From: a virus
Reading direction: 5' to 3' (one strand)
DNA: 34,280 bases
IMG/VR virus record: IMGVR_UViG_3300012964_000031
Coordinates: 1-34,280 of that record
Positions 4,919 to 23,868 of this stretch are shown in pieces; within the stretch, counting starts at the first letter, position 1; each line of letters begins with the position of its first letter. A program made the translations under genes and the position numbers. Below the pieces are notes generated by a model, which searched no databases, had not been told where the DNA came from, and saw nothing but the letters and a program-made list of their open reading frames with translations.

Positions 4919-4957
4919 TGAAGTAAATCGAAAATCATAAATCATAAGGAGTTCATT

Positions 4958-9047: not shown

Positions 9048-9050
9048 CAA

Positions 9051-9088
9051 AAGTCGGACAGGTCAGACGGGTCGGACAGGTCAGACAA
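9051..9088 (+). repeat. GTCGGACAGGTCAGAC-type tandem repeat between protease and decoration genes
   Basis: Four GTCGGAC/GTCAGAC units occupy the gap after the protease stop and end 4 bases before AAGGAG and the next ATG. It is the same family as the copy at 5171, here untranslated. Confidence 0.85.
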
Positions 9089-9102
9089 AGTAAGGAGAAT
9101 TT

Positions 9103-9522
9103 ATGACAACCTATTCCAATTCACCGAAGACCTTCACGTCCGGCGCCGCCCTGGGCGTATTCTTGCGGGTCAAGATCGCCGGCGCCACGCGAAAGGCCTA
9201 TCTGGCCGGGGCCAGCGATTACGGCGTCGGGACGGTCCAGCAAGGCGTCGCCATCAATAAGGACGTCAGCATCCGGCTCTGGGATCACGGCGGCAGCCAC
9301 AAGTGCGTGGCCTCCGGCGCTATCCTCGCCGGTCGCAAGGTCTATGCCGCCGCCTCCGGCAAGATCGCCGCGACGGGGACGCTGCTGATCGGCACAGCGC
9401 TCGATGCCGCCAGCGGTAACAACAGCGTGATCGAGGTGCTGCCTCACCTGAACTATAAGCAATCGAGCAGCTCTTCCTCAAGTTCAAGTTCGAGCTCAAG
9501 CTCCTCTTCAAGCTCGAGCTAA
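9103..9522 (+). CDS. Capsid decoration protein copy 1 with poly-Ser tail
   Basis: Residues 1-118 form a beta-rich domain with repeated Gly/Ala turns (GVGTVQQGVAINKDVSIRLW, ILAGRKVYAAASGKI, GTLLIGTALDAASG). This pattern resembles DUF2190-type capsid cement proteins and stands in the position of lambda gpD, just before the major capsid gene. Residues 121-139 are 19 consecutive serines encoded by mixed AGC, TCN and AGT codons. The TAA at 9520 interrupts a longer Ser frame that continues for 26 more Ser codons. The second gene copy at 9659 is closely similar, especially from KVYAAASGKI onward. A ribosome site, AAGGAG, lies before the ATG. The tail probably faces outward on the capsid. Confidence 0.82.
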   Translation: MTTYSNSPKTFTSGAALGVFLRVKIAGATRKAYLAGASDYGVGTVQQGVAINKDVSIRLWDHGGSHKCVASGAILAGRKVYAAASGKIAATGTLLIGTALDAASGNNSVIEVLPHLNYKQSSSSSSSSSSSSSSSSSSS

Positions 9523-9603
9523 TCGTCCAGCTCGTCGAGCAGCTCTTCGTCATCGAGCTCATCGTCCAGCTCGTCGAGCAGCTCCTCGTCATCGAGCAGC
9601 TAA
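9520..9603 (+). other. In-frame continuation of the poly-Ser frame behind a TAA
   Basis: After the stop codon at 9520-9522 the same frame reads 26 Ser codons and nothing else before a second TAA at 9601. The stretch is a tandem pair of near-identical 39-base units (9523-9561 and 9562-9600). TAA differs from the Ser codon TCA by one base. It is either a fresh truncation of a 46-Ser tail or a leaky stop. Confidence 0.8.
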
Positions 9604-9658
9604 ATCGTCAATCTCCCGAAAGGGACGCCATCAGGCGGAAAATTGAGAAAGGGATATT

Positions 9659-10048
9659 ATGACAACAATGGCCAACAGCCCGTTCACGTTGACGGCCGGG
9701 GCCGCCATTGCGGTGTTCCTGCGCGTCAAGGCCTACGGCCGGACCGGGTATCTCGCCGGGTCCTCTGACTACGGCGTCGGCACCGCCATCGAGGGCGTTG
9801 CCAGCGGCAAGATCGTGGCCGTGCGGCTCTGGGAGCATGGTGGCAGCCATAAGTGCGTCGCCTCCGGCGCGATCAGCGCCGGCGCTAAGGTCTATGCCGC
9901 CGCCTCCGGCAAGATCGCCGCCACGGGGACGCTCTTGATCGGGACGGCGCTCGATGCCGCCAGCGGCAATAACAGCGTGATTGAGGTGCTTCCGCACATC
10001 GGGCACACGCAGTCCTCATCGAGCAGCAGCAGCTCCTCGAGCAGTTAG
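9659..10048 (+). CDS. Capsid decoration protein copy 2 with poly-Ser tail
   Basis: This tandem paralogue of the gene at 9103 has the same beta-rich fold, with blocks such as SDYGVGT, GGSHKCVASGAI, KVYAAASGKIAATGTLLIG and ALDAASGNNSVIEVLPH shared almost unchanged. The N-terminal 70 residues have diverged more (AVFLRVKAYGRTGYLAG against GVFLRVKIAGATRKAYLAG). Residues 119-129 are 11 serines, then TAG. Two slightly different subunits may share the capsid lattice, or one may be used at special positions. The leader contains a short hairpin, TCCC-GAAA-GGGA, and the ribosome site GAGAAAGGG. Confidence 0.82.
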   Translation: MTTMANSPFTLTAGAAIAVFLRVKAYGRTGYLAGSSDYGVGTAIEGVASGKIVAVRLWEHGGSHKCVASGAISAGAKVYAAASGKIAATGTLLIGTALDAASGNNSVIEVLPHIGHTQSSSSSSSSSSS

Positions 10049-10066
10049 AAGAGTCCGAACGGGGCA

Positions 10067-10114
10067 ATGAAAAAGAAACCCATACAGGGCAATGAAAAAG
10101 GAGTAAAACAATGA
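10067..10114 (+). other. Possible 15-codon leader peptide before the major capsid gene
   Basis: A short frame, MKKKPIQGNEKGVKQ, ends in a TGA that overlaps the capsid ATG (ATGA). It spans a 14-base direct repeat, GGGCAATGAAAAAG, at 10062 and 10087, of which only the second copy is followed by the working AAAGGAG site. It may be a translational coupler or simply a duplicated leader. Confidence 0.3.
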
Positions 10115-11070
10115 TTCAGAAATCAACCCACGCGGTGCCGCGAATGGATTTGGGCGTCGCCTTTCACGAGTACACGATGAGCAAGGTGCGACTGATCGCC
10201 GACGCCGTCCTGCCCATCCTGGGCGTCGCCAAGGAAGCGGCCACGATGAGCGTCACCAAGCGCAAGAACCTGACGATCCCCGCGACCAAACACGCGAACG
10301 GGGCAACGTACAATCGCGTCGAGCTCTATATGGACGATCTGGCCTACGCCTGCGTCGATCACGGTCTCGAAGGCCAGATCACGGACCGCGACCGCGAAAA
10401 GTACGCCAGTGACTTCGACGCCGAGGTTGAAAAGACCCAGGCGATCAAGACCAAGATGAAGCTGGCCAGAGAGAAGCGAGTTAAGGATCTTATCTTCAAC
10501 ACGACCACCTGGCCCAGCGGGACGGCCGCCCTCTATACGGACTATAGTTCCGCCCCTTGGGACGCCGCCGGCAGCAAGGTGATCAAACAACTCCAGACGG
10601 TCCGTGAACTGGTCCGGCTCAACTGCGGCGTCCCGGCGGATAGTCTCGTCATCAGCGAATCCTCCATGATCAACCTGATGAATAATACAGAGATTCTTGC
10701 CAAATTCCCCGGCGCCACGGCGATCACCGAGGCCATGCTGAGGGCGGCGATGGCGGCGATTTTAGGTATCCCGAACCTCATCGTCGGCCAGGCCGTCTAT
10801 AACTCCGCTGATGAGGGCCAGGATTTTAGCGGCGCCGAGATCTGGCCGGATGATTATGCCATGGTCGCTGTTCTGGGCGCCGACGGCCTGCCGATGACGG
10901 AGCCCCAGCTTGGCCGCACGATTCTGTGGGAGAATTACACACCCGACATCGAATACATCGAGATGTACCGCGAAAACCAGACCAAGAGTGACATCATCAA
11001 TGTCGAGCAGAGTATCGATGAGAAGGTCTTCGATGCCTACTTCGGCCATCTGATGAAGATCGATGCGTAA
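10111..11070 (+). CDS. Major capsid protein
   Basis: This HK97-fold shell protein has 319 residues and stands directly after the decoration genes and before the connector, as in lambda (gpE, 341 residues). Visible hallmarks are the N-terminal RMDLGVAFHEYTMSK, an E-loop-like charged region, LVRLNCGVPADSLVISESSM in the P-domain, and the C-terminal PDIEYIEMYRENQTKSDIINVEQ and KVFDAYFGHLMKI, typical of capsid proteins that end with a strand followed by a short helix. No poly-Ser tail is present, unlike its partners. The strong AAAAAGGAG ribosome site fits high expression. The stop overlaps the next start (TAATG). Confidence 0.88.
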   Translation: MIQKSTHAVPRMDLGVAFHEYTMSKVRLIADAVLPILGVAKEAATMSVTKRKNLTIPATKHANGATYNRVELYMDDLAYACVDHGLEGQITDRDREKYASDFDAEVEKTQAIKTKMKLAREKRVKDLIFNTTTWPSGTAALYTDYSSAPWDAAGSKVIKQLQTVRELVRLNCGVPADSLVISESSMINLMNNTEILAKFPGATAITEAMLRAAMAAILGIPNLIVGQAVYNSADEGQDFSGAEIWPDDYAMVAVLGADGLPMTEPQLGRTILWENYTPDIEYIEMYRENQTKSDIINVEQSIDEKVFDAYFGHLMKIDA

Positions 11071-11417
11071 TGAGCAGCGTCTTTGACGACACGCTGAAAG
11101 CGGCGGCGGATAGTTTTTTCCTGCTGCCGGACGCGGAATGGCTGACGTACTTTCCGCGAAACGGGGCCAGCCGGCGGATCCGGGCCGTAGTGACGCGAAG
11201 CGAATGGCTGGGGCTGCCGGGCGTAGAAGGCGGTTCCCGGCCACCGATGGAGGTTCTGGTGAAAAATAACGCCGCCGCCGGCATTGATAGTGAGACGGTT
11301 GATACCGGCGGCGACAGGATTGAAGTGGCCCCGAACATCAACGAGCCGCCTGCGATGTTCCGGATCGTGGAGATTGTCAATCACGATGCGGGCCTGATGC
11401 TCCTGAAGGTGCAATGA
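11070..11417 (+). CDS. Head-tail connector, gpFII-like
   Basis: The protein has 115 residues, close to lambda FII (117), and stands between the capsid and gpZ genes, where FII lies. It forms the interface between the completed head and the tail terminator. The sequence begins VFDDTLKAAADSFF, then GASRRIRAVVTR, GGSRPPMEVLVKN, DTGGDRIEV and a final strand-rich part, consistent with the small beta-barrel fold of this class. The C-terminal 118 residues of the giant fibre ending at 31543 are a clear paralogue (shared GGSRP-x2-E-x-LV-x-N and DTGGD). It overlaps the next gene by 4 bases. Confidence 0.75.
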   Translation: MSSVFDDTLKAAADSFFLLPDAEWLTYFPRNGASRRIRAVVTRSEWLGLPGVEGGSRPPMEVLVKNNAAAGIDSETVDTGGDRIEVAPNINEPPAMFRIVEIVNHDAGLMLLKVQ

Positions 11418-12001
11418 TGATTGAGATTCGGTTCGATGAGCATAAGCTCCGCCAGGTCCAGCAGCAGCTTGCAGCGATCCCCAATGCGATGCCGAAGGTG
11501 ATGAGCCGGGGCCTCAACCGCACGGCCACGCAGGCCCGAACCCTGACCAGCCGCCGGCTCTCGTCATCGACCGGGCTTCGCGTCCAGGATGTGCGGGATC
11601 GCATCGCCGTCGAGCGGGCCAGTTATAAGAACTGGCGCTCGGCCATCCGTTTCCGCGCTGGCGGCTTGCCGATTGTCCGGTTCCCTCATGAGCAGACGGG
11701 CGAGGGCATCACCTGGCGTCCCTCTCGCAATAAGACGATCCTGATCCGTCATGCGTTCCTGGCCACAATGCCGGCCAGCGGCCATAGGGGTGTGTTCCTT
11801 CGCGCTCGATACGCCAAGGGCCGCTTTATCTCGATGAAGGGCCGCAAGAAAGAGGCCATCTACGAGCAGAAGGTCCGGCTTCAGGATGTCTTTACCCAGA
11901 GCCAGGCGGAGATGGACCAAATCTATATTGAAAGTCTTGCCCGGCTTGAAAAGAATATCCACGACCAGGTGCAGTTGATTCTCAAACAGAGGGTCGCATG
12001 A
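11414..12001 (+). CDS. Minor tail protein Z-like (tail completion)
   Basis: This 195-residue, very basic protein belongs by pattern to the lambda gpZ family: MSRGLNRTATQARTLTSRRL at the start (the AINR...A-S arrangement of gpZ), RAGGLPIVRF in the middle, where gpZ has GDLPVIKL, then GRKKEAIYEQKV and a helical C-terminus. gpZ acts late in tail completion, before head joining. The gene order FII-Z-U-V is kept exactly. Start ATGATG is embedded in the end of the connector gene; the first or second ATG could serve. It overlaps the next start by 4 bases (ATGA). Confidence 0.78.
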   Translation: MMIEIRFDEHKLRQVQQQLAAIPNAMPKVMSRGLNRTATQARTLTSRRLSSSTGLRVQDVRDRIAVERASYKNWRSAIRFRAGGLPIVRFPHEQTGEGITWRPSRNKTILIRHAFLATMPASGHRGVFLRARYAKGRFISMKGRKKEAIYEQKVRLQDVFTQSQAEMDQIYIESLARLEKNIHDQVQLILKQRVA

Positions 12002-12465
12002 GCACGCCCGTCATTGAAGAGATCGCCGTCAAGCTCGTGGCTTTGATCAACCAGATCACTGTCGGCAACGGCTTCAACCAGACGCTGACCGCCGTTAGGC
12101 CCAAGCGGATCCACTTAGAGGGCGACATCAATACAGATAAGACGGTGATCATCGAGCAAATGGATGGCACGGCGGCCCTGGACGCCAACGAGACGACCGT
12201 CTGGCACCAGGGCTTCGCCATTCAGGCTTTGGTCATCGATTCGGACGATGCGACGGAGGCGCTCGATACGCGGCTCAATCAGGTGGCGGCGGATATCATC
12301 AAGAAGCTGTTCACGGGCTCTAACAGCAATTTCGACGGCCTGGCCGACGGCATATTCCTTCAGGGAACCGAGCGGTTCATTGCCGACCCGCAATTGGCCG
12401 GCATCGCCGTCAATATCATCGTGCAACTGCCGTTCGATACGGCCGATCCCTACACTCAAAACTAA
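11998..12465 (+). CDS. Tail terminator protein, gpU-like
   Basis: This 155-residue protein lies between gpZ and the tail tube gene, the position of lambda gpU, whose hexamer caps the tail tube and binds the connector. It has the alpha/beta look of the class: an N-terminal helix (EEIAVKLVALINQI), strands KTVIIEQMDG and FAIQALVIDSDD, then a long helix (RLNQVAADIIKKLF) and a final strand, AVNIIVQLPFDT. Direct residue identity with gpU is low. Starting ATGAGC overlaps the upstream TGA. No Ser tail is present, as expected for a protein buried at the neck. Confidence 0.68.
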   Translation: MSTPVIEEIAVKLVALINQITVGNGFNQTLTAVRPKRIHLEGDINTDKTVIIEQMDGTAALDANETTVWHQGFAIQALVIDSDDATEALDTRLNQVAADIIKKLFTGSNSNFDGLADGIFLQGTERFIADPQLAGIAVNIIVQLPFDTADPYTQN

Positions 12466-12476
12466 GGAGAATCACC

Positions 12477-12899
12477 ATGGGAACGCTCTATGGCTGGACA
12501 TTAACAGGCTCGATCAGCGGCATCTTAGGCAAGCTGACCAACGTCGATTACAACGGTCTGAATATCGATGAGATCGACGTCACCAATGCCGATTCGAGCG
12601 GTCAGTGGAACGAATACGAGGCGGGGTTCAAGGACCCGGGCGTTGTTTCGGCCACGCTGATTTTCACCGCCGCCCTCTACGAGACGCTGCTGGCCGCCTT
12701 CGGCGTTAGCCAGACCTGGACCTTTGAGAAAGACACGAAGGTCTTTACGGTGGCTGGCTACGTCCGAAACCCGAATGTGACGATGCCCCTGCGCAGTGCC
12801 TCGACGTGCGCCATTGAGATCCGCTGCAGCGGAGCGCCGAGCTTCAATTCGTCCAGCAGCTCCTCAAGCAGCTCCTCGAGCAGCTCGTCAAGCAGCTAA
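12477..12899 (+). CDS. Major tail tube protein with poly-Ser tail
   Basis: This is the repeating subunit of the tail tube, gpV-like by position (after U, before G/GT). Residues 1-122 show a compact beta fold: GTLYGWTLTGSISGILGKLT, then NADSSGQWNEYEAGFKDPGV, a turn often conserved in tube proteins, and strands through CAIEIRCSG. Residues 125-140 are 16 serines up to the stop. Lambda gpV carries an Ig-like domain at exactly this C-terminal place on the tube surface, so the Ser tail would stud the outside of the tail. It has a strong AAGGAG ribosome site and expression is probably high. Confidence 0.8.
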   Translation: MGTLYGWTLTGSISGILGKLTNVDYNGLNIDEIDVTNADSSGQWNEYEAGFKDPGVVSATLIFTAALYETLLAAFGVSQTWTFEKDTKVFTVAGYVRNPNVTMPLRSASTCAIEIRCSGAPSFNSSSSSSSSSSSSSSSS

Positions 12900-12923
12900 A
12901 AATATCAATCGAAAGGATAGCTT

Positions 12924-13319
12924 ATGGCCGACCAATGGGCGAACAAAGACGTTCTATTCAAACAGACCGTGCCGAAGGAGCGGTACACGATCGCGGGCGT
13001 GGGCGATGTCTGGATTCACGGCTTAACCTGCGGCCAGAAGGATGAATACGAGAACCAGGCCGTTAAGATCCTGGCCGGCAAACGGGAGGTCCGCATGGAG
13101 GACGCCCGGGCCTTGCTGCTCCTCTGGACCATCCACGATCAGCATGGCAATCGTTTCTTCAGCGAGGAGGAGATGGGCAAGATCCGGACCATCCCAGCGG
13201 CGATCTCCGAACCGATGTACGAGAAGGCCCGGCGGCTCAGCCGCATGTCCGTCGAGGACGTGGAGGGTCTCGTAAAAAACTCCGTGACGATCCAGGGCGG
13301 CGACTCCGCTATCGAATAG
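12924..13319 (+). CDS. Tail assembly chaperone, gpG-like (zero frame)
   Basis: This 131-residue protein lies between tail tube and tape measure, the position of lambda G. It is helical and acidic, with EDARALLLLWTIHDQHGN and a C-terminal MSVEDVEGLVKNSVTI. In lambda, gpG coats the tape measure during tail assembly, and a minority of ribosomes shift to make gpGT. Here codons GTA AAA AAC near the end form an A AAA AAC slippery heptamer at 13274-13280, and the -1 frame is open for a further 105 codons. The stop TAG at 13317 lies inside the predicted stimulatory hairpin. Confidence 0.82.
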   Translation: MADQWANKDVLFKQTVPKERYTIAGVGDVWIHGLTCGQKDEYENQAVKILAGKREVRMEDARALLLLWTIHDQHGNRFFSEEEMGKIRTIPAAISEPMYEKARRLSRMSVEDVEGLVKNSVTIQGGDSAIE

Positions 13320-13597
13320 CGGCGGCCCTGGGCTGGAGCAAGGCCCGCGTCGATGCCGAGCTCTCCGCCGAGGAAGAGATGGATTGGCGGTTGCTCGAAG
13401 GGATTGAGCCGTGGGGCGAGCGGCGGGCGGACTACCGGGCGGCCCGCATCATCGAGGCCATCTACTTAGCCAACGGTTGCAAGCCGGATTTGAGGAAGAT
13501 CATGGCGATGTTCAATTCGGATACCGATAGGCAAGACCTGGACGATGAGCAATCCGAGCAGGTCCTCGGACAAATCCCCAAAGGACGGGGGCAATAG
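12924..13597 (+). CDS. Tail assembly chaperone GT fusion made by -1 frameshift
   Basis: Slipping back one base at A AAA AAC (13274-13280) joins 119 zero-frame codons to the -1 frame from 13280, which reads LRDDPGRRLRYRIAAALGWS and continues through EEEMDWRLLEGIEPWGERR to the TAG at 13595. The frame has no stop between 13280 and 13595, and without the shift the region would be a 280-base gap with only a poorly initiated 72-codon frame. The T part of lambda gpGT binds the tail tube protein. The fusion would have 224 residues. It ends 1 base before the tape measure start. The coordinates given span both frames. Confidence 0.82.
13274..13331 (+). promoter_or_regulatory. Programmed -1 frameshift signal: slippery heptamer and hairpin
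   Basis: The heptamer A AAA AAC is in the right phase with the zero frame. Eleven bases on, CCAGGGC (13292-13298) pairs with GCCCTGG (13325-13331), and inside it CCGCTAT (13306-13312) pairs with ATAGCGG (13316-13322) across a 3-base loop. The zero-frame stop lies in the inner stem. Confidence 0.82.
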
Positions 13598-13598
13598 C

Positions 13599-15626
13599 AT
13601 GGCCTTATCGACCACCGTAGGTGTTGAGTTTATCGCCCGAAACCGTTCGGCGGCGGGCATTAGTGCCTTCAACAGCAGCCTGGGCACCACCACAATGTAT
13701 CTTCGCCGTCTGATGACGGCCGCCCTGGCCGTCGGCGGCGTCTATGGCATCGGCTACATGATCAAGACCGAAATAGAGGCAATGCACACGACAATCAATC
13801 TCGCCGACCGTTTAGGCATGAGTACCGAAGCCCTGACGACCCTGCAGCACGCGGCCAAGATGACGGGCGTCGAGCAGGAACAATTAACCACGTCTCTTGA
13901 TTTCTTCAATCGCACCCTGGGCGACGCCCAGAAGGGTTTGCCCTCAGCACAAAAAGCATTCACCGATTGGGGTATATCGTTAAAGGGCATGGCCGGCCTC
14001 AATCTGGACGAAAAGATTGGGATCGTCGCCGACCAGATCAATAAGTTAGGCAGCGAATCGCAAAAAGCGGCCGCGAGGCAGGATCTTTTCGGCAAGGGCA
14101 GCCAAACCTTAGCGGGTTTATTCGCCGAAGGCAGCAAAGGAATAGCCGCCTACCGTCAGGAAACCGAAAAATTCGGCCTGATTCTCAAAGCTATCGATGC
14201 CAGTCAGGTAGAAGCGGCCGAAAAGGCGCTGACTCGATTGAATGAGCTTTTTGGCGGCATACGGCGGCAGATAGTGATCGAGCTCGCCCCTTACATCGAG
14301 GCCGCCGCAAGCGCCTTTGTTAATTGGGCAACCGCCGGCGAAGGCGTCGGGGCGAACGTTTCGCGAGCTTTTGAAATTGCTTCGCTTAGTGTGGTCGAGT
14401 TCGCTAATCAATTAGAAGCCATTCCCGCCAGATACAATGAAATCATGGCAAGTATGATGCGCTTCAATGCCATGATGGAGAAAACGGCTATAGGAAGAGC
14501 TGGCGCGCTCGGGCGAAGAATTGTCGGAGGGGAAGATCCTGCTAAATTAGCTGCTGAATATGAAGCGAAAGCCGCTGAAGCTCGCGCCAGGGCACAAGCT
14601 AACCTTACAGGAGTCGAGCAATTCTACGCCGATCTGAGAGCCAAAGCCCAGGAGCGGGCGGCAGCGTTGCCGCGGGAAGGGGCGCTCGACATTTCACCCA
14701 GCGCCCTCGAAAAGATTGCGGCAATGAAGCGATACATCGCACAAACTAACGCCCCGGCCATGAGCGCCGAAGAAATGCGGGCTGTTGTCGAGCGCACGCG
14801 GGAGGCCATCGATTCGATCCGCCATATGGATGATCTCACGCGGCAGGAGCGGATCGCCAATCTCAAGGCGTATGCCTCCGCCAACGCGGAAGAATTGGGC
14901 AAGGTTGCAGAAGCCAACCGGGCACTCAATGATGAGATACTGGCCATCGAGCGGTCTCGCGTCGATGCGATGAAGGTCTATCAGGCCGAGTTGCGCGAGG
15001 ACATGCAGAATATCAATCTCTACATTTCCGAGCGTTTCGCCGATACAGCCCGGAATATCGAAGGCTCGCTCTCCAACGCCTTCAACAGTATGATCGCCGA
15101 CGGCGCCTCGTGGCGGGATGCGATGAGTCAGTTCTTTATCGACGTCGGGAATGCCTTCTCTCGCATGGCGGCGGACATGGTTGCCCGGGAGGCGGCGGCC
15201 CGTATCATCCAGCCGCTGATGGGGGGTTTGATGGATATAGTCGGCGGCGGAGCGGGGACTGATATAGGCGGAGGCTATGCCGCCAAGTTGAACGCTGATT
15301 TAATAATGGCCGGTGAGGCACATACCGGTGGGAGAGTAGGGGCCTTGAATGCCCGGCGCTGGGTTGATACCTCGCTCTTCGAGAACGCCCCGCGCTTCCA
15401 CGATTTGCGTCCGGGCGAGACGGCCGTGATTGCCCAGGATGATGAGGTGATCTCCCGCCCCGGACGCTCGCGGGCCGGCCAGCCTCCGAGCGTCGTGATC
15501 AATAATTACACCGGCCAGAAGTTCGAGAGTCAGGGTCCCTCCTTCGATGGCGAGCGGTGGGTGGTCGGGATCGTGGCGCAGAACATCAAACAGGGCGGTG
15601 GCCTCAAGAAAATGATCAGACGATAA
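13599..15626 (+). CDS. Tape measure protein
   Basis: The tape measure fixes tail length and is ejected with the DNA. The protein has about 675 residues, long helical stretches, an N-terminal hydrophobic segment (MTAALAVGGVYGIGYMI, about residues 34-50), and then repeats of the TALTTLQHAAKMTG and LFGKGSQTLAGLF type seen in tape measures. The C-terminal part has FIDVGNAFSRMAADMVAREA and FHDLRPGETAVIAQDDEVI, matching the lambda gpH C-terminal domain region. I chose the ATG at 13599, just after the GT stop with GGACGGGGG upstream; an earlier ATG at 13545 would overlap GT. By the usual 1.5 angstrom per residue the tail would be about 100 nm. It carries no Ser tail. Confidence 0.88.
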   Translation: MALSTTVGVEFIARNRSAAGISAFNSSLGTTTMYLRRLMTAALAVGGVYGIGYMIKTEIEAMHTTINLADRLGMSTEALTTLQHAAKMTGVEQEQLTTSLDFFNRTLGDAQKGLPSAQKAFTDWGISLKGMAGLNLDEKIGIVADQINKLGSESQKAAARQDLFGKGSQTLAGLFAEGSKGIAAYRQETEKFGLILKAIDASQVEAAEKALTRLNELFGGIRRQIVIELAPYIEAAASAFVNWATAGEGVGANVSRAFEIASLSVVEFANQLEAIPARYNEIMASMMRFNAMMEKTAIGRAGALGRRIVGGEDPAKLAAEYEAKAAEARARAQANLTGVEQFYADLRAKAQERAAALPREGALDISPSALEKIAAMKRYIAQTNAPAMSAEEMRAVVERTREAIDSIRHMDDLTRQERIANLKAYASANAEELGKVAEANRALNDEILAIERSRVDAMKVYQAELREDMQNINLYISERFADTARNIEGSLSNAFNSMIADGASWRDAMSQFFIDVGNAFSRMAADMVAREAAARIIQPLMGGLMDIVGGGAGTDIGGGYAAKLNADLIMAGEAHTGGRVGALNARRWVDTSLFENAPRFHDLRPGETAVIAQDDEVISRPGRSRAGQPPSVVINNYTGQKFESQGPSFDGERWVVGIVAQNIKQGGGLKKMIRR

Positions 15627-15627
15627 T

Positions 15628-16092
15628 ATGGCGACCTTTCCGACATTAACCCGGGCTGTTTCGCATCGCGGATGGCAGGAATCCAAGCTCATCGATCCCA
15701 CCATCCGGACGGAGTTCGTCTCAGGCGCGATTGCGACACGGGCGAGATTCTCAGGGACGGTCCCGGTGCTCTATAAGGTGACCTATCATCATATCTCGCC
15801 GGCGGACAAAGTCTCGCTGGAGGCGTTCGAGGATTCAATCGACGTCGGCACGACCACGTTCAACTGGTATAACATCCTGACGTCCACGATGTGGACCATG
15901 CGCCTGCACTCGCCGATCCAGTTCGGCCTGGAGCCCAACTGCATCGATAAATATTATGCGCAGATCGAAATGTTCGGCTCGGCGGGATCTTCAAGCTCGT
16001 CGTCCATTTCGTCCTCATCCTCTTCCTCTTCCTCGTCGCTTTCGTCATCAAGTTTTTCATCGTCTTCTTCGTCTTCATCATCGAGTGCCTGA
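15628..16092 (+). CDS. Minor tail protein M-like with poly-Ser tail
   Basis: This tail-tip protein comes directly after the tape measure and before the L-like protein, the position of lambda gpM. Residues 1-118 are beta-rich (FSGTVPVLYKVTYHHISPADK, TTFNWYNILTSTMWTMRL), as expected for the distal-tail barrel. Residues 121-153 are Ser-rich, with single Ile, Leu and Phe interruptions, ending in Ala. Its codons are mostly TCN rather than AGC, unlike other tails in this window, so this tract has an independent recent history. The surface-exposed tail at the baseplate edge could affect host contact. The start lies 1 base after the tape measure stop. Confidence 0.75.
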   Translation: MATFPTLTRAVSHRGWQESKLIDPTIRTEFVSGAIATRARFSGTVPVLYKVTYHHISPADKVSLEAFEDSIDVGTTTFNWYNILTSTMWTMRLHSPIQFGLEPNCIDKYYAQIEMFGSAGSSSSSSISSSSSSSSSSLSSSSFSSSSSSSSSSA

Positions 16093-16721
16093 TGCCCGAA
16101 TCAATTGATAAATACATCGCGATCGAAAAGAACAAGCTCGCCGGCGGCGGGGCCTGGCTGTGGCTTCTGGACATAGATATTGAAGGCGAGGAAACGCTGC
16201 ACTTTGTCAACAACATCGAGAACGTCACCTACAGGGGCACGGTGTATTATAAATGCAATTTTCAGATGGCCGCCTACGACAAGTCCGAGCCCGGGCGGCT
16301 CTCGGAGGTCGAGCTCAGTATCAGTAACGCCGACCTGGTCGCTTATGTCCTGCCCTACGTCAATCAGTACGATGGTCTCGTCGGGGCGGCAATCGCACGA
16401 ACGCCGGTCAACTCGAAGTACCTCGATATCGATATGTCCTCCAAATCTGAGGAGTTCATCGTCATGGGCTGCTCGGCGGGCGAGGAATGGATCGCCTTCA
16501 CTTTAGGCGCCCCCAGCCCGCTGAACAGGAAGTTTCCGGAGAAACGGTTTTTCGGCGCCTATTGCCGTTACGTCGGCAAGTTCAAGGGCATCGAGTGCGG
16601 CTACACCGGCGCCGAGACGGTGTGCAACGGCACGCCCGAGGACTGTGAAGACAACAAATCGAATTTGGAGCGCTTCGGCGGCCAGCCGGGCCTGCGGAGC
16701 AAAACGGTGAGGTTTGCCTGA
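16092..16721 (+). CDS. Minor tail protein L-like with four-Cys iron-sulfur motif
   Basis: This tail-tip protein of 209 residues is similar in pattern to lambda gpL, which bridges the distal ring and the hub and carries a [4Fe-4S] cluster. Four cysteines stand at 158, 169, 178 and 185 in the context CRYVGKFKGIECGYTGAE, VCNGT, EDCEDNKSNLERFGG, followed by QPGL. The CGYTG...C...C...N...RFGG order is the signature of the family. The N-terminal half is a beta domain with LSEVELSISNAD. It overlaps the stop of M (TGATG) and the start of the K-like gene (TGATG). Cluster binding is inferred from the ligands. Confidence 0.85.
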   Translation: MPESIDKYIAIEKNKLAGGGAWLWLLDIDIEGEETLHFVNNIENVTYRGTVYYKCNFQMAAYDKSEPGRLSEVELSISNADLVAYVLPYVNQYDGLVGAAIARTPVNSKYLDIDMSSKSEEFIVMGCSAGEEWIAFTLGAPSPLNRKFPEKRFFGAYCRYVGKFKGIECGYTGAETVCNGTPEDCEDNKSNLERFGGQPGLRSKTVRFA

Positions 16722-17146
16722 TGGATGTCCCCCGCGTTAAAGCCAAGCTCGATCTGAAAGACTTGATCGGACGGCCCTACAAGGCCGGCGGCCGGGGCCC
16801 GGCGGACTACGACTGCTGGGGCCTGTGCATGAGCATCGCCGAAAAGACCGGCGGCCGCCTGCCCGATCTGGATATTCCCCAGGACAATGACACGCGAGCT
16901 GAATTGGTCAACCGCCAGCAGGCGGGCCATTTCAAGAGGCTCGATGTCCCCGCCGCCGGGTGCCTGGTGCTCTTTCGGATCATCGATGACGCGGGCGCCA
17001 TTAAATGGCATGTGGGCACCGTCCTGCCGGATGCCCATCACTTTATCCACACGACCGAAAAGATGGGCGTCAATATCGCTGCCCTGGACCGCCAGCCCTG
17101 GAAACTGTTTGTCGAGGGCTTTTACATTTATCAGCCCACGCCATGA
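16721..17146 (+). CDS. Tail tip NlpC/P60 peptidase, gpK-like
   Basis: This 141-residue cysteine peptidase of the NlpC/P60 fold is used by siphophages for tail assembly or local peptidoglycan cleavage. The catalytic Cys32 stands in YDCWGLCM, the family's D-C-x-G-x context, with His97 in KWHVGTVL and a third polar residue likely in HHFIH (107-110). Lambda gpK has an extra N-terminal JAMM domain that is missing here, so only the peptidase half is present. The genes M, L, K and I/J follow one another with overlapping stops and starts, so translation is coupled. Confidence 0.85.
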   Translation: MDVPRVKAKLDLKDLIGRPYKAGGRGPADYDCWGLCMSIAEKTGGRLPDLDIPQDNDTRAELVNRQQAGHFKRLDVPAAGCLVLFRIIDDAGAIKWHVGTVLPDAHHFIHTTEKMGVNIAALDRQPWKLFVEGFYIYQPTP

Positions 17147-19356
17147 ATAAAGAATTGAAGATCATCGTTGTTCGCAATCCTTTGGACGTCCAGAGGGACC
17201 GGCTCATTGTCTCGGCGCCGTTCGCCGGCCAGGACCTCCGTGACATCCTGGCCCAGTACGCCGCCGATCTGGAGTGCGTCATCGTCCGGATCAACGGCGT
17301 CAAGCTGCCGGCCGTCGAGAAGGACCACTACAATCAGACGCTTCGGCCGGGCGATGAGGTCCTTATCCTGCCCGCGGTCCATGATCCGGTCAGCGCCACC
17401 ATTGCCGTCGTTGCCTGGTTGGGTGCAGCCGCCGTCGCTGCCGCACCATATCTCATATCCGCCGCCATCAACATCGGGATATCCATTGGGATCGCCTACC
17501 TGATCCGGGCCATCGGAGGCTCGCCTGATGACGCGGACGTGGACAGCACCCCGTCCTATGGCTGGTCGCCCATTACGATTCAGAGGCAGGGCACGCCGGT
17601 CCCCAGGGCCTACGGCACCAACAAACAGCACGGCAACATCATCGCCGGCTGGCGCTCGCCCTCCGGCGCCGATGAGACCCTGAGCCTGCTGTTGGCGTTC
17701 AACGAGGGACCCGACAGCGGCATCGTCCCCGATACGATCTATGTGAACGGCCAGCCCATAGACAATTACGACTCGGTGATCACCTATGAGCGCAAAGGGC
17801 TGATGGAGCAATCCGCCATCTTTAGCGCGCTCAAATGCGAATATCAGCCGGAGCTGGAGGTGATTCACACCTCCGATGCTGGCGGTCCGGTCATCTGGAC
17901 GACGCCGGACAACGATTTCAACTCGCTGGAGATCGCCGTCAAGTACAGCGGTCACTATGTTCACCAGGATGGAGGAACCGAAACCCAAACCGTGGGTGTA
18001 AAGATCGAGATATCCGAGCACGGCGCCGAGGATTGGTATACCCTGGCCAACGAGCTGCTGAACTGCGCCACGACGCCGCTGCAGAAGAACTACCTCTCGA
18101 CCGGCACCTACACCGGTGGCGCCGCTGTTGCGATCACTAAGGGCACCCGCTGCGATATCCGGATCACCAAGACCAACGCCGGGCGGATCTGGGACGCGAA
18201 TCGAAAGAGCCGGTATCTTTATCTCTCGACCGTCCGTGAGGTCATCGCCACGGCCTTCGAGTATCCGGGCTTGTCGCTGTTGGGGATATCGGCTATCGCC
18301 ACCGAAGACCTCAGCGGGGCGATGGAGGTCTCCTGTATCCGCAAGGGCCGCATCGTCAACGTCTATAACGGCTCGATCTGGACGCTGCAATGGTCGGATA
18401 ATCCCGCCTGGGTGATCTGGGATATCTTGACCCGGCCGGTGATCTCGGGCGATGGCGGCGGCACCCCATACGCCATTGAGCGGTACGATGGCATCGATCC
18501 GGCCCGGCTGACGGCTTATCTCGATGAGTGGTATGAGGCGGCCGAATATTTCGATGATTCCATTTCGGACGGCAAAGGGGGCTACGAAAAACGCATCATC
18601 TTCAACGGCGTCTTCGACTTTCAAACCACCATCTGGGACGCCGTGGATAAAGTCTGCGCGATAGCCCGCTGTGAGGTGCTGCGGATCGGCCGCAATTATA
18701 CGATCTTAGTCGATAAGCCGGACGCCTCGACCCCGGTCCAGTTGTTCAGCGCCGGCAATATCAAGCCGGGTACGTTTCGCCGCAACTACATCGACCTCAA
18801 TGACCGGGCCGGTGAACTGGAAATAGACTATCAGGATTTAGACCTCGACTACGAGATGACCCCGATGCTCCACGTGGACCAGGCCATCGATAGTCACGCG
18901 GTCAAGACCATCGAAGGATTCGGGATCACGCGGGCCTCGCAGGCCTGGCGGGCGATCTATTATGAGCTCGCCAAAAACCGAATCCTCAAGTACATGGTCG
19001 AGTTCGAGGCGGACATCGACGCCATCGCGTGCAAAAAAGGCGATATCGTGTTGGTGGTCGAGCCCTGGCGATTGGGCGGCCGCGTGGTCGCCAGCACCGC
19101 CGCCAACAAGGTGACGCTCGACGTGGCGCCGGCGCTCAGCGCCGCCGATACGATTGCCGTGCGGGTCAATCACCCCGATACGGGCGCTGAGACGGTCGAG
19201 ACGCACACGGTCGCCTCCGTCGCCGGGGCGGTCGTGACGATCGCCGACACCTGGACGGTGAGGCCGAAAAAGGACGATCTCTACGCCTTCGGCCCGACGG
19301 CAACCATCCTGAAGAAATTCCGCGTGGTCGGGATCGTCGAGGGTTCGGAACTATGA
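17143..19356 (+). CDS. Tail hub protein: gpI-like N-terminus fused to gpJ-like body
   Basis: This protein has about 737 residues. The first 75 (KIIVVRNPLDVQ through RPGDEVLILPAVHD) have the beta-grasp, MoaD-like look of lambda gpI, followed by a hydrophobic stretch, roughly 80-122 (TIAVVAWLGAAAVAAAPYLI, then NIGISIGIAYLI), as in gpI. The remainder, from TPSYGWSPITIQRQGTPVPR, is a gpJ-type central hub with SDNPAWVIWDILTRP, FDFQTTIWDAVDKVCAIARC and a C-terminal beta domain (KKGDIVLVVEP, WRLGGRVVA). It lacks the fibronectin-like domains and long tail of lambda J (1132 residues). I chose the ATG at 17143, which overlaps the K stop (ATGA); the frame is open upstream without function. The fibre genes follow. 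Confidence 0.83.
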   Translation: MNKELKIIVVRNPLDVQRDRLIVSAPFAGQDLRDILAQYAADLECVIVRINGVKLPAVEKDHYNQTLRPGDEVLILPAVHDPVSATIAVVAWLGAAAVAAAPYLISAAINIGISIGIAYLIRAIGGSPDDADVDSTPSYGWSPITIQRQGTPVPRAYGTNKQHGNIIAGWRSPSGADETLSLLLAFNEGPDSGIVPDTIYVNGQPIDNYDSVITYERKGLMEQSAIFSALKCEYQPELEVIHTSDAGGPVIWTTPDNDFNSLEIAVKYSGHYVHQDGGTETQTVGVKIEISEHGAEDWYTLANELLNCATTPLQKNYLSTGTYTGGAAVAITKGTRCDIRITKTNAGRIWDANRKSRYLYLSTVREVIATAFEYPGLSLLGISAIATEDLSGAMEVSCIRKGRIVNVYNGSIWTLQWSDNPAWVIWDILTRPVISGDGGGTPYAIERYDGIDPARLTAYLDEWYEAAEYFDDSISDGKGGYEKRIIFNGVFDFQTTIWDAVDKVCAIARCEVLRIGRNYTILVDKPDASTPVQLFSAGNIKPGTFRRNYIDLNDRAGELEIDYQDLDLDYEMTPMLHVDQAIDSHAVKTIEGFGITRASQAWRAIYYELAKNRILKYMVEFEADIDAIACKKGDIVLVVEPWRLGGRVVASTAANKVTLDVAPALSAADTIAVRVNHPDTGAETVETHTVASVAGAVVTIADTWTVRPKKDDLYAFGPTATILKKFRVVGIVEGSEL

Positions 19357-19616
19357 GCCGCAAGATTGTTCTGATCGAATACGACGAGGATATTTACGAT
19401 GGCGATGATATGGAGCCGAACATCCAGGATCCCAATTTCTACAATGCCGACCAGGGCGGCGAGACGGCCGCCGCGGCCGCCGAGGCGCTCGAAAGCGAGC
19501 GCGTGGACGCCAAGATCGAGGTTCAGCTCTCGGACCTGCACAGTTACCTGATTGGAATATCGAGCAGCAGCTCCTCGAGTTCTTCAAGCAGCAGTTCCTC
19601 AAGTTCCGGGGCCTGA
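19353..19616 (+). CDS. Small fibre-base paralogue ending in poly-Ser
   Basis: The 87-residue protein begins RKIVLIEYDEDIYDGDDMEP, almost the same as the start of the next gene, continues as an acidic helical segment, and ends with 16 serines (residues 70-85) and Gly-Ala. The paralogue at 19618 reaches its Ser tract at residue 69, so both share the same layout, but here nothing follows the serines. It may be an attachment piece for the hub without a fibre, or the remnant of a fibre gene that lost its distal part by recombination in the Ser tract. The start overlaps the hub stop (ATGA). Confidence 0.7.
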   Translation: MSRKIVLIEYDEDIYDGDDMEPNIQDPNFYNADQGGETAAAAAEALESERVDAKIEVQLSDLHSYLIGISSSSSSSSSSSSSSSSGA

Positions 19617-19617
19617 T

Positions 19618-21144
19618 ATGCCGCGAAAACTTACACTAATCGAGTACGATGAAAACGTCTATGACGGCGACGACATGGAGCCCGCCATCCAGTTCAGGGA
19701 CGCTGTGCCCTCCGTGACGGGTCAGAAACGCCAGGAGATCACGGATAAAGAATTAGAGACCGTCGATAACGTAGAGATTGCCCAGCGCATCGAGGACATG
19801 CGGGTCTATGCCCGGTACATATCGAGCTCATCGAGCGCCAGCTCCTCGAGCGCGACGCCCAGCGAGGAGCTCTTCGAGCATCATGAGACCGGCGGCGATT
19901 CGTCTTACACCATCGGCCAGACCGGTTACGCCAATATCCTCGCCCAGACCTTCACGCCGGATATCGCCCACCGGATCAGCCGGGTCGAGTTAGAACTCTT
20001 CGATCAGCAGGGCAACGGCCTGACGGGTGACATAACCATCGAGATCAAGGCGACCGACGTCAATGGCCTGCCGACGGGATCGGCCCTGGCCAGCGGCACG
20101 ATTGACTCAGCGGATCTCAATCCGGGCCACTACTCTGACGTCTATAACGACATCTACCGATCAGGCACAGGAGGAACAAATTATCTGTATGAGGTCTGTT
20201 TTTCCCAGGATGGCCTGCACATGTACTCCATCAGTTATAAGAGTAGCTGGGGTGCTTACGGCATTCATCATTATATTCTGTCCGTGGCCTGGGATATCAC
20301 AACAGCCTCATTGTCCGAATCTCATGAGCTGGATGACTGGGGACATGGTTCGTATTACTTTTTCGCGTTCGATTATAGGGGAATTTTCCTCAAACCAGAT
20401 GGTACGAGAATATACATCGTGGGCAATCATACCGAATACGGAAGTTTCATTTGGCGGATAGATCTTGATGTACCTTATTATATAAGCTCGGCGACTCCTT
20501 TCATCTCAGAAGATTTATTTGCCACCGCACAACAACATTCCTGCTGGTTTAACGATGATGGGACCCGACTCTTCACGGCGGATAATTTAAACGATGCCGT
20601 TTTTCAATACAATTTGTCCACACCCTGGGATATCACCAGTTTTTCATCGACGCCCAGTCAGAGTACGAGCGTTTCAGCCTATACCAATAATACTCGCGGC
20701 GTTGCCTTCAGTGCCGATGGTCTGAAGATGCAGGTTATCGATGCTCAGTACCACAAGATACTCTTCTGGAATCTATCGACGGCCTTCAATCTATCGGGTG
20801 AATCAAAGGATTCCTACGAAATGGACATCTCCGGCATCATGACAACGCCGAGCGGATGCTATACGAAAGGCAATGGGAATACCTTCTTTGTTTGCGACGG
20901 CAGTTTGTCTGCCCTGACAGTCTATCGTTTCGATCTGCCCGCCCTGCACGGCGACTGGCATGAGGCGGACTTGGGGCTGGGCGACGAACTCGCCGCCGCG
21001 ACCCAATATGCCCTGTGCGCCAGCTACGCGAATTACGAGGAAGGCGTTAGCGAGCCGGAGTGGGTCAACAACGCCGATGGCGACGATAACTACCCGGCCG
21101 GAACGCTGCTGCGGTATGACGGCAGCAACTGGTACGACTCCTGA
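19618..21144 (+). CDS. Tail fibre: Ser linker, jelly-roll split by a beta-propeller
   Basis: This protein has about 508 residues. Residues 1-68 are the shared acidic base (RKLTLIEYDENVYDGDDMEP), 69-80 are a short Ser/Ala linker, and 85-165 are the first half of a jelly-roll of carbohydrate-binding appearance (ANILAQTFTPD, VELELFDQQGNGLTGDITIE, GSALASGTIDSADL). Residues about 166-440 are propeller-like repeats (FSQDGLHMYSI, FLKPDGTRIYIVG, FNDDGTRLFTAD, FSADGLKMQVI, each followed by Leu-Ser-x-x-WDIT). The jelly-roll then resumes with LPALHGDWHEADLGLGDEL and ends YDGSNWYDS. The propeller DNA is visibly richer in A+T than its flanks. I chose the ATG at 19618 because it lies 1 base after the upstream stop and matches the paralogue's start. 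It is likely a receptor-binding fibre. Confidence 0.78.
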   Translation: MPRKLTLIEYDENVYDGDDMEPAIQFRDAVPSVTGQKRQEITDKELETVDNVEIAQRIEDMRVYARYISSSSSASSSSATPSEELFEHHETGGDSSYTIGQTGYANILAQTFTPDIAHRISRVELELFDQQGNGLTGDITIEIKATDVNGLPTGSALASGTIDSADLNPGHYSDVYNDIYRSGTGGTNYLYEVCFSQDGLHMYSISYKSSWGAYGIHHYILSVAWDITTASLSESHELDDWGHGSYYFFAFDYRGIFLKPDGTRIYIVGNHTEYGSFIWRIDLDVPYYISSATPFISEDLFATAQQHSCWFNDDGTRLFTADNLNDAVFQYNLSTPWDITSFSSTPSQSTSVSAYTNNTRGVAFSADGLKMQVIDAQYHKILFWNLSTAFNLSGESKDSYEMDISGIMTTPSGCYTKGNGNTFFVCDGSLSALTVYRFDLPALHGDWHEADLGLGDELAAATQYALCASYANYEEGVSEPEWVNNADGDDNYPAGTLLRYDGSNWYDS

Positions 21145-22142: not shown

Positions 22143-22155
22143 AAGATTGAATTCT

Positions 22156-22770
22156 ATGACTGAATCCCAGCCTCAATTTCCCGACCTCGAGACCTGGCGG
22201 CGGACAGTCGTCAAGCCGGGCGATCTGCCTCAATATCTGAGACAGGATTTCTACGATTATTACAAGAGCAAATTCGAGATTGCCCTATCCGCCCGGCCCC
22301 AAGTCATCTGTGAGATCGGGGTGCGGTGGGGCTATTCGGCCTTCAGCTTTTTGTGTGCAGCCTCTGCGGCCCATTATACGGGATTCGATATTGTGGACGG
22401 CACGCACGGTGGGGCCCGAGGGCTGGATACATTCGATTATGTAAGGACTATGCTCAGCGGCCATTTCCCACAGGCCGTCATCGATCTTCGCCATGAGGAT
22501 ACCCGCAAGCTTCGCGACTTAGGCGGGCCTTACGACTTGGTCCACGTGGACGGCGATCACAGCGAGGACGCCGCCTCTCACGATATCTGGATGGCCCTCC
22601 GGGCCTGCCGTCCGGGCGGGATGGTCCTGGTCGATGACTACAACTATATCGCCGGGGTGACAAGGGCGGCGGATTACATCCTGTCCGGCGCGCCCGAGCA
22701 GATAGCCCGCCATTGGACGCAGGATTCGCTGCGAGGTGAATTGATTCTAATCAAAGGGGATCCGAAATGA
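22156..22770 (+). CDS. Class I SAM-dependent methyltransferase 1
   Basis: The 204-residue protein has the Rossmann motif I CEIGVRWGYSAFSFL, motif II AHYTGFDIVDG, and YDLVHVDGDHSEDAASHDIW with RPGGMVLVDDY, the layout of the Methyltransf_24 family, whose members often methylate sugars or antibiotics. No DNA-recognition domain is seen, so it is not a restriction-type enzyme. It opens a block of seven modification genes. I chose the ATG at 22156; a TTG at 22147 is possible but not needed. It overlaps the next start by 4 bases. A sugar O-methyltransferase role is inferred from the glycosyltransferases downstream. Confidence 0.8.
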   Translation: MTESQPQFPDLETWRRTVVKPGDLPQYLRQDFYDYYKSKFEIALSARPQVICEIGVRWGYSAFSFLCAASAAHYTGFDIVDGTHGGARGLDTFDYVRTMLSGHFPQAVIDLRHEDTRKLRDLGGPYDLVHVDGDHSEDAASHDIWMALRACRPGGMVLVDDYNYIAGVTRAADYILSGAPEQIARHWTQDSLRGELILIKGDPK

Positions 22771-23258
22771 TCAAACTGCGGCCCTCGATAGAGATTGTTC
22801 GCCATTGCTGCCCGGCCCCCGTCGCCGGCGCCGAGATCGGCGTTTTGGGCGGCGGCCACGCCGTCACTATGCTCCGCAATTTCCCTGAGCTGCGGATGCT
22901 TCATCTGGTCGATTCCTACGGCGGTATCAGCGAGCAGGACCCCAAGGTGATCGAGTTCAAGAATCGTTTCGCCCCCGAATCGCAGCGGATCCGCTGGCAC
23001 ATCCGCACGTCGCTGGACGCCTCCATTGAATTTGCCGACGGCTCGCTGGATTTCGTCTATATCGACGCGAATCACCGCTATTTCGAAGTCGCCCGGGACA
23101 TCCGGGCCTGGTGGCCCAAGGTCAAAGCGACGGGCCTTTTGTGCGGACACGATTATTTCAGTCATGGCTCAGTAAAACAGGCCGTCGATGACTGGGCCAA
23201 AGAATTCAATCATTACATCTTTTCGACCGCACCCGACTGGTGGTGCTTCAAGGAGTGA
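22767..23258 (+). CDS. Class I SAM-dependent methyltransferase 2
   Basis: The 163-residue protein has a short form of the class I fold: AGAEIGVLGGGHAVTMLRNF as motif I, LHLVDSYGG as the acidic strand-2 end, then DGSLDFVYIDANHRYFEVAR and WPKVKATGLLCGHDY. It belongs with Methyltransf_24-like enzymes but is divergent from its neighbours, with less than a third of residues in common by eye. The end WWCFKE closes the final strand. The start overlaps the upstream stop (ATGA) and the next gene begins 1 base after its stop, so the three methyltransferases are translated as a block. Confidence 0.78.
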   Translation: MIKLRPSIEIVRHCCPAPVAGAEIGVLGGGHAVTMLRNFPELRMLHLVDSYGGISEQDPKVIEFKNRFAPESQRIRWHIRTSLDASIEFADGSLDFVYIDANHRYFEVARDIRAWWPKVKATGLLCGHDYFSHGSVKQAVDDWAKEFNHYIFSTAPDWWCFKE

Positions 23259-23259
23259 C

Positions 23260-23868
23260 ATGGACATCGACTATAACCAGCTCATCAAGGACAGCAATAA
23301 CCGCATCGCCGCCCTCGATTTGCAGCTCTTGGAGCGGGCCTGCGATCATTGCCGGGCAAAAACGATTCTGGAGATCGGCTCGGCCGACGGCGGCTCCTCG
23401 GTCATACTCGGCCTCAAGGCCAAAGAGCGCGGTGGGCATCTCTATTGCATCGAGCCTCAGCCGAAAGGTCGCATGAAGGCGAACATGACCGCCCATGATT
23501 TGGAGGGTGTTTACACCCTCATCGCTAAAGCGTCCCCATGGATCCAGTTCGAGGCCATACCGCCAATCGACCTATTGTTCATCGACGGTCGTCACGATCT
23601 TCGCTGGTGCCTGGTTGATTATCACTATTGGCAGCCGAAGGTCCGCGTCGGCGGCGTCATTGTCTTTCACGATACGAGCGGTCATTGCCAGGAAGACCGC
23701 CGCCAATCCGGCTACGGCCAGCCGGGCTATAAGCCTCTCGTGCAGCGGGCCATCGATATCATCCTGACGACGGACGCGCTGCGGATTGTCGGCATTTCAG
23801 AGACCCCCAACGGCGGGGCTATCGCCTTCGAGAAAACTGAATTCATCGAATCGAAAGGAACGCCATGA
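23260..23868 (+). CDS. Class I SAM-dependent methyltransferase 3
   Basis: This protein has about 202 residues. Motif I is ILEIGSADGGSSVILGL, the acidic end of strand 2 is LYCIEPQPKGRM, and the catalytic-core part is IDLLFIDGRHDLRWCLVDYH with VRVGGVIVFHDTSGH. The DGRH and HD residues are those used for metal or substrate binding in the cephalosporin-hydroxylase/CmcI-like and Methyltransf_24 enzymes. I chose the ATG at 23260, 4 bases after AAGGAG; the frame is open further upstream only as a shadow of methyltransferase 2. It overlaps the epimerase gene start by 4 bases. The substrate is unknown, likely a sugar hydroxyl. Confidence 0.8.
   Translation: MDIDYNQLIKDSNNRIAALDLQLLERACDHCRAKTILEIGSADGGSSVILGLKAKERGGHLYCIEPQPKGRMKANMTAHDLEGVYTLIAKASPWIQFEAIPPIDLLFIDGRHDLRWCLVDYHYWQPKVRVGGVIVFHDTSGHCQEDRRQSGYGQPGYKPLVQRAIDIILTTDALRIVGISETPNGGAIAFEKTEFIESKGTP

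Follow-up and report, generated by a model that had tools for sequence, protein, structure and literature searches.

Conserved polyserine tails on virion proteins of uncultured tailed phages and the sugar-transferase cassette that accompanies them

Why should several structural proteins of a single phage end in nearly pure serine, and what might such tails do? The question arises from a 34,280-nt stretch of viral DNA, analyzed at its full length and referred to here as the window, for which the initial annotation had reported serine tails on five otherwise unrelated structural proteins. All five tails are present with exactly the lengths and coordinates first given (Table 1), but gpD1 and gpD2 are paralogues with 77% identical cores, and hence the tailed proteins belong to four families rather than five. 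In the gpM tail, 30 of the 33 residues are serine, with I, L, and F inside and a final Ala added, and the 16 serines of the fibre-base protein are followed by Gly-Ala. Serine runs of at least 10 residues far exceed chance expectation. The two fibres said to use polyserine as linkers do so, as internal serine linkers were located in both; the C domain of the larger fibre is related to the stopper-position protein.

Table 1. Tailed proteins, fibres, and sugar cassette of the window
Feature	Position	Strand	Support
gpD1, cement/decoration protein, 19-Ser tail (9463-9519)	9103..9522	+	Phage_cement_2, 25.4 bits vs cut-off 24
In-frame continuation of gpD1 tail: TAA, 26 Ser codons, TAA	9520..9603	+	1/92 tails
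gpD2, gpD1 paralogue, 11-Ser tail (10013-10045)	9659..10048	+	Phage_cement_2, 29.6 bits
gpV-type tail tube protein, 16-Ser tail (12849-12896)	12477..12899	+	Phage_TTP_11, E 6e-6, slightly below cut-off
gpM-position tail-tip protein, 33-residue Ser-rich tail (15988-16086)	15628..16092	+	No family match; name from gene order
Small fibre-base protein behind J: docking domain, 16-Ser tail (19560-19607)	19353..19616	+	Function inferred from position
Fibre: docking domain as in fibre-base protein, short Ser linker (19822-19854), large distal domain	19624..21144	+	
Three Methyltransf_24 enzymes: MT1 22147-22770, MT2 22767-23258, MT3 about 23260-23868	22147..23868	+	Pfam, above cut-off
Nucleotide-sugar epimerase/dehydratase	23865..24746	+	PF01370, E 3.5e-39
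GT1, presumed glycosyltransferase, kept in cassette	24743..25462	+	No family match
GT2, GT9-type glycosyltransferase	25437..26213	+	PF01075, E 1.5e-8; fold matches GT9 enzymes and TibC
GT3, TibC-like GT9 domain with Cys finger, fused to GT4 domain	26210..28078	+	
Fibre: beta-type N domain, Ser linker (28595-28777), BNR-like domain, 419-residue Ser/Gln tether (29930-31186), C domain	28079..31543	+	

An in-frame stop within the gpD1 tail had been overlooked: the TAA at 9520-9522 is followed by 26 further serine codons, which end at another TAA (9523-9603). That read-through is common to the tails was rejected, since serine codons continue past the stop in only 1 of the 92 tails checked, that of gpD1 in the window.

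The homologue search that the initial annotation had proposed found C-terminal serine tails on 45 of 46 gpD proteins (at least 6 Ser within the last 20 residues), 26 of 26 gpV proteins, and 9 of 9 gpM proteins, and the tails persist in relatives as distant as about 26 to 30% identity. The gpD tails vary in length between 6 and over 90 Ser, the gpV tails between about 11 and 23 Ser; one gpD (in G007) bears a large extra domain in place of serine. The same search upheld the view that buried proteins go without a tail: across the relatives, terminase, portal, protease, capsid, stopper, tape measure, L, and K all lack a polyserine tail. The exceptions are Ser-rich tails on 1 of 28 U proteins and on 4 of the 16 J proteins with complete sequence. 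A genome-wide serine habit was rejected, as the cassette, the packaging proteins, and the buried tail proteins are clean. The tails are therefore conserved peptides restricted to a few protein families. A literature search found no report of polyserine tails on phage proteins, and a search of solved structures with the gpV of the window gave only spurious serine matches.

The codons suggest what is being conserved. TCN and AGY codons are mixed in all 82 tails, as had been claimed for the window, although the mix is weak in its gpM tail (27 TCN versus 3 AGY, all six serine codons occurring). Further, codons turn over between close relatives while serine is retained, which indicates that selection on the tails acts at the peptide level. 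Chance and DNA slippage were rejected on the basis of this mixing, the turnover, and the conservation of the tails.

What else do the tailed phages share? The initial annotation had suggested that the tails might be O-glycosylated by the enzymes at 24743-28078. The block is in fact larger (22147-28078), taking in three methyltransferases and a sugar epimerase, and it is co-inherited with the tails: all or some of it occurs in each Ser-tailed record of sufficient reach, including those where the cassette has moved. The family consists of uncultured tailed phages whose serine tails always go together with the same sugar-transferase genes, as far as the sequence reaches. GT2 and GT3 match the GT9 and GT4 families and are conserved in the relatives.

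GT3 is the largest enzyme of the cassette. The best PDB sequence match of its N-terminal half (GT3-N) is TibC, a protein O-heptosyltransferase that modifies serine, not threonine (PMC4358343). The similarity is weak in sequence, and the match to TIGR04414 (22.2 bits, E 5.8e-5) is far below the curated cut-off of 200. In fold, the GT3-N model has its top TM-score to TibC (TMq up to 0.69, rmsd 4.4 Å), while the Foldseek E-value is best for LPS heptosyltransferase II (1psw), by a slight margin over TibC, and the profile E-value also favors that enzyme. All four positions of the TibC iron finger are cysteine in the GT3 of the window (C238, C241, C255, and C265); C238 is not conserved in the relatives, and C241, C242, C247, C255, and C265 are invariant in nine phages. 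The modelled fold is TibC-like and comes with a putative counterpart of the TibC finger. The N-terminal beta-barrel of TibC is probably absent, because GT3 begins directly with the catalytic fold.

The initial annotation had held that close relatives with the same cores and no C-terminal addition would refute a uniform surface coat. Sister prophages (Omnitrophota and one Aminicenantes MAG) share the gpD and capsid cores, and their gpD is indeed bare, with Ser tails in 0 of 16. Across 246 kb of sister loci, no ORF of 100 aa or longer contains a run of 8 or more Ser, which likewise speaks against a genome-wide serine habit. However, the sugar cassette is absent there too, and hence these prophages separate two lineages rather than refute the proposal. 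The capsid tree shows a single joint change of tail and cassette, so that their linkage within the family does not count as independent evidence. When 84,980 genomes were searched for the capsid, only this tail-less sister lineage turned up; among cultured phages, capsid relatives occur only at about 23 to 25% identity.

Two unrelated phages, G407 (with a Phage_capsid_3 capsid) and G399 (159 kb), also pair TibC-like enzymes with polyserine. A third, G416, has GT1 to GT3 and no polyserine, and several polyserine contigs outside the family, among the matches listed in a search with a 20-base serine-codon pattern, lack GT3. A scan with the G407 enzyme as the query returned no match besides G407 itself. 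We tentatively raise the possibility, which we hold somewhat less probable than its negation, of a transferable virion-coating module in which serine acceptor tails on unrelated structural proteins would be served by a dedicated cassette of TibC-like O-glycosyltransferase and methyltransferases, acting on head, tail, and tip in the siphophage family and mainly on fibre-like proteins in G407 and G399.

We modestly favor the reading that the phage itself O-glycosylates a virion-wide serine brush, with the tails on surface-facing ends of virion proteins; the outward orientation of the tails, their glycosylation, the sugar identity, the order of the steps, and the benefit of the coat are what we infer. 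The tails would be disordered serine appendages, and the cassette (methyltransferases, epimerase, GT1, GT2, and GT3) would glycosylate their serines during late gene expression. GT3 may begin the glycan with its TibC-like half, which would place a first sugar on serine; its GT4 half, together with the other transferases, may then lengthen the chain, and the methyltransferases may cap it. Head, tail tube, and tip would thereby carry a glycan brush, and the fibres sugar-coated tethers. Such a coat may provide shielding, hydration, or weak adhesion, where the initial annotation had envisaged possible changes in adhesion, immunity, or superinfection.

The tails might instead act unmodified, as a neutral, hydrated, disordered brush for solubility, weak adhesion, or spacing, with the cassette making some other glycan and linked to them only through the shared late region. 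Polyserine is hydrophilic and uncharged, the wide range of gpD tail lengths would suit such a brush, and many polyserine contigs outside the family, among the matches listed, do without GT3. We nevertheless consider this fairly unlikely, as it gives no account of why serine and not other hydrophilic residues survives codon turnover and leaves unexplained both the co-loss of tail and cassette in the sister group and the same pairing in G407 and G399.

Less probable again is that the cassette acts on the surface of the host, through serotype conversion or superinfection exclusion, or on the fibres only, with the tails serving another purpose. GT9 enzymes are mostly LPS heptosyltransferases, and the G416 enzymes without polyserine would fit, yet the block lies within the late structural region, between fibre genes and in the same direction (in L245 it separates the tape measure gene from that of L), no lysogeny gene was recognized next to it, and GT3-N resembles a protein glycosyltransferase.

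Neutral expansion of a slippery DNA repeat could draw on the highly variable gpD lengths and the TCN-dominated gpM tail (27 of 30 codons). We regard it as very improbable, being largely refuted already by the alternation of TCN and AGY in every tail and by the restriction of tails to the same families across 26 to 90% identity while other proteins never gain runs; the gpV tails, moreover, hold their length. That the tails are flexible linker ends onto which folded domains recombine, as the extra domain of the G007 gpD and the two fibre linkers might suggest, is scarcely credible when most tails are bare in all relatives, including all 26 gpV tails.

Few phage isolates are known to have glycosylated particles. 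If phage-encoded glycosylation of the brush is correct, the candidate acceptor could be read from sequence, serine homopolymers marking the coated proteins and the enzymes adjoining, and virion glycosylation would become searchable in uncultured viruses. For a phage protein O-glycosyltransferase, the tails would also make a very simple substrate, and removing the tail and the enzyme independently of each other could show what a virion glycan coat does.

Among known systems, Saccharophagus and Teredinibacter use polyserine linkers to join domains of secreted polysaccharide-degrading enzymes; these too are nearly pure serine stretches in extracellular proteins, whereas the polyserine of the window mostly sits free at the C termini of virion proteins. 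Siphophage tube and head proteins carry C-terminal Ig-like domains, for example on lambda gpV, and the likeness lies in a C-terminal addition on the tube protein and a multi-copy surface decoration (PMC9022992). Here, in contrast to a folded domain, the addition is a disordered homopolymer, and several unrelated proteins within a single particle share it; the gpV and gpD of the window gave no Ig family match, and their tails are pure serine. With the TibC/Aah BAHT enzymes, GT3 shares a GT9-like fold and, putatively, a cysteine metal finger in the same place, serine being the known acceptor of TibC (PMC4358343), but GT3 is a phage enzyme, fused to a GT4 domain, with finger cysteines partly shifted and no autotransporter substrate. 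Finally, mycobacteriophages (Che8 and relatives; Freeman et al. 2023) encode glycosyltransferases and are reported to bear glycans at the C termini of capsid and tail-tube subunits (PMC12619734, PMC11256854). The phage of the window, too, carries glycosyltransferase genes of its own. No GT3 relative was found at E 1e-5 among 50,697 phage records that include mycobacteriophages, and the window differs in that a homopolymeric serine tail would be the acceptor, repeated on several families (tube, decoration, and tip, with none on the capsid protein), for a glycan that is putative.

The late region of this 34,280-base record of an uncultured virus is that of a lambda-type siphophage, its genes running in the order terminase, portal, protease, two gpD-type cement proteins (gpD1 and gpD2), capsid, a short protein placed where lambda has its stopper gpFII, then gpZ, a protein at the U position, a gpV-type tube protein, the tape measure, a protein at the gpM position, gpL, NlpC/P60 K, and J. 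All five serine tails lie exactly where the initial annotation had placed them; they do not belong to five unrelated proteins, however, as gpD1 and gpD2 are paralogues and the tailed families are therefore four. Serine also serves as a linker inside two fibres.

Searching IMG/VR with the capsid protein, we retrieved 24 relatives, and later searches added further ones. Counted over complete homologues, the tail is present in 26/26 gpV, 9/9 gpM, and 4/4 fibre-base proteins, and in 45 of the 46 gpD proteins (at least 6 serines in the last 20 residues; at least 8 in 38/46). The polyserine observation is confirmed and proved stronger than first stated. The sole gpD exception, in the relative G007, has an extra domain of ~250 residues at its end in place of serine (locus L026:7856-8995), and gpV tails are kept even where core identity is as low as ~26 to 30%. 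Complete homologues of the terminase, portal, protease, capsid, stopper, Z, G, tape measure, L, K, and the enzymes of the downstream cassette carry no tails. The earlier suggestion that buried proteins lack them thus holds across the relatives, except for 1/28 U and 4/16 J proteins. In those four (from G006, G009, G011, and G404), the bare tail is on J itself, whereas J in the window has none and the next gene carries it instead.

Coordinates of features in the window
Feature	Position	Remark
gpA-type terminase	2944-4896	
gpD1 stop codon (TAA)	9520-9522	followed by 26 in-frame serine codons
Second TAA	9601-9603	
Stopper-position protein	11070-11417	behind the capsid gene
Fibre base	19353-19616	small protein behind J; bare polyserine end
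Next fibre gene	19624-21144	large distal domain
Cassette	22147-28078	
Larger (giant) fibre	28079-31543	serine tether of 419 residues: 355 Ser, 39 Gln
C-terminal domain of giant fibre	31187-31540	
Short dispersed repeats	5168-5207, 9048-9096, 26156-26213, 27572-27611; and 632-658, 1043-1069, 4896-4922	within and between genes

An N-terminal docking domain (IEYDE..YDGDDMEP) is common to the fibre base and the fibre gene that follows it. The C-terminal domain of the giant fibre resembles the stopper-position protein (39% identity, E = 1e-23), and this fibre may therefore be anchored at the head-tail neck via its serine tether. Giant fibres with a stopper-like C-terminal domain also occur in the relatives G001, G402, G403, and L245. 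The short dispersed repeats, of GACAGGTCAGAC type and ACCACGAAGGACACGAAG type, are possibly common to the host too.

TCN and AGY codons are mixed in all 82 tails examined, most weakly in the window gpM (AGY, 3/30). In ungapped comparisons of three close pairs, tail codons agree at only 5/17, 4/29, and 2/19 positions, while 29 to 34 of the 50 codons directly upstream agree. This mixing and turnover indicate that it is the serine peptide rather than the DNA sequence that selection keeps, as the initial annotation had proposed. That annotation overlooked the serine codons beyond the gpD1 stop, a continuation found in 1 of 92 tails, that of the window gpD1 alone. The arrangement is most simply read as a long tail cut short by a recent nonsense change; read-through, if occasional, could possibly yield two tail lengths. 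Many relatives have a pair of gpD proteins, one short-tailed (~10 to 16 Ser) and one longer-tailed (~16 to >90 Ser).

A cassette downstream of the first fibre genes encodes three Methyltransf_24 enzymes and a nucleotide-sugar epimerase, together with GT1, which matches no family, GT2, of GT9 type, and GT3, in which GT9 and GT4 domains are fused. Most or all of it is present in the window, G001, G003, G007, G011, G401, G402, G403, G404, and L245, where it is retained at a moved position between tape measure and L; it is partial in G006 and G400, and contigs G002, G008, and G012 break off within it. Cassette-free tailed records (G004, G005, G009, G010, and short contigs) appear to stop short of its expected place.

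Pattern-based scanning of 84,980 genomes brought up only a related prophage lineage, present in MAGs of Omnitrophica, in one MAG each of Aminicenantes and "Deltaproteobacteria", and in the complete Candidatus Velamenicoccus archaeovorus genome; a capsid profile run over 384 Omnitrophota genomes added further loci. The Velamenicoccus chromosome holds two tail-less capsid loci of such lambda-type prophages (L037, L078, L085), and related loci without serine tails occur in >10 other Omnitrophota MAGs. In this sister lineage, gpD stops at the point where serine starts in the tailed group (tails in 0/16), and the tube protein (~380 aa) looks different. Cassette genes were not found in the fetched sister loci, and searching five of the genomes for GT3 gave only weak matches, outside these loci, in two. 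Since a single, fully supported branch of the capsid tree separates the two groups, tail and cassette changed together once within this comparison, in one event and not many.

We also scanned viral contigs for a serine-codon DNA pattern. Among the matches listed, C-terminal tails on recognisable head or tail proteins were confined to the tailed family (L125, L138, L139, L143, L158, L168, L178, L182, L196, and L225); the remaining polyserine was in fibre-like proteins, proteins without recognised identity, or probably antisense frames. G407, whose capsid is unrelated (Phage_capsid_3, E = 3.5e-59), carries, flanked by serine-rich genes, three Methyltransf_24 enzymes and an enzyme resembling GT3 (34%), one serine-rich gene being near the capsid gene. 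G399, a 159-kb phage found via GT3, has GT1-, GT2-, and GT3-like genes and epimerases, with one serine-rich gene adjoining them and three more polyserine proteins elsewhere. The counter-example is G416 (L252, L258), an unrelated phage with GT1-GT2-GT3 relatives near its tail genes and yet no polyserine in its 43 kb; the acceptor of these enzymes would be informative. GT3 was absent from most other polyserine contigs tested. It is also lacking in G405 and G406 (L236, L238), two further unrelated contigs whose polyserine fibres are directly preceded by genes for Methyltransf_24, epimerase, and radical-SAM enzymes. The association of enzymes with polyserine outside the tailed family is suggestive, not proven.

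Among solved structures, the best single-sequence match of the GT3 N-terminal half is TibC (E = 0.024), which transfers heptose onto serine, not threonine, and requires an iron finger (Cys 339, 342, 358, and 370) (PMC4358343). The whole-GT3 profile favours heptosyltransferase II (E = 1.2e-6) over TibC (E = 0.0066), and the match of the N-terminal half to TIGR04414 (E = 5.8e-5) is far below the family cut-off. The N-terminal model (pLDDT 83.5) has its best TM-score to TibC (up to 0.69; rmsd, 4.4 A) and its best Foldseek E-value to heptosyltransferase II. The finger cysteines align with GT3 C238, C241, C255, and C265, and those invariant in nine phages are C241, C242, C247, C255, and C265; because these are conserved but partly other than those of TibC, GT3 likely has a metal site, not identical to that of TibC. 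We infer that GT3 may act in a TibC-like manner on the polyserine tails.

In the best-supported scenario, late expression would yield gpD, gpV, gpM, and fibre proteins that bear disordered tails of serine, the cassette would add sugars to the tail serines before or during assembly, and the particles would bear a glycan brush, with shielding, hydration, and weak binding as candidate roles. Of the glycosylated coat initially envisaged, cassette linkage and enzyme similarity make virion glycosylation of the serine tails plausible, and the glycan itself is putative. The tails probably point outward, as C-terminal Ig-like domains of known siphophage tube proteins do (PMC9022992) and as lambda gpM has the tube fold too (PMC10721106). 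A precedent for putative glycans on these C-termini comes from mycobacteriophages, in which, as PMC12619734 describes with reference to Freeman et al. 2023, glycans are found at the C-termini of capsid and tube subunits.
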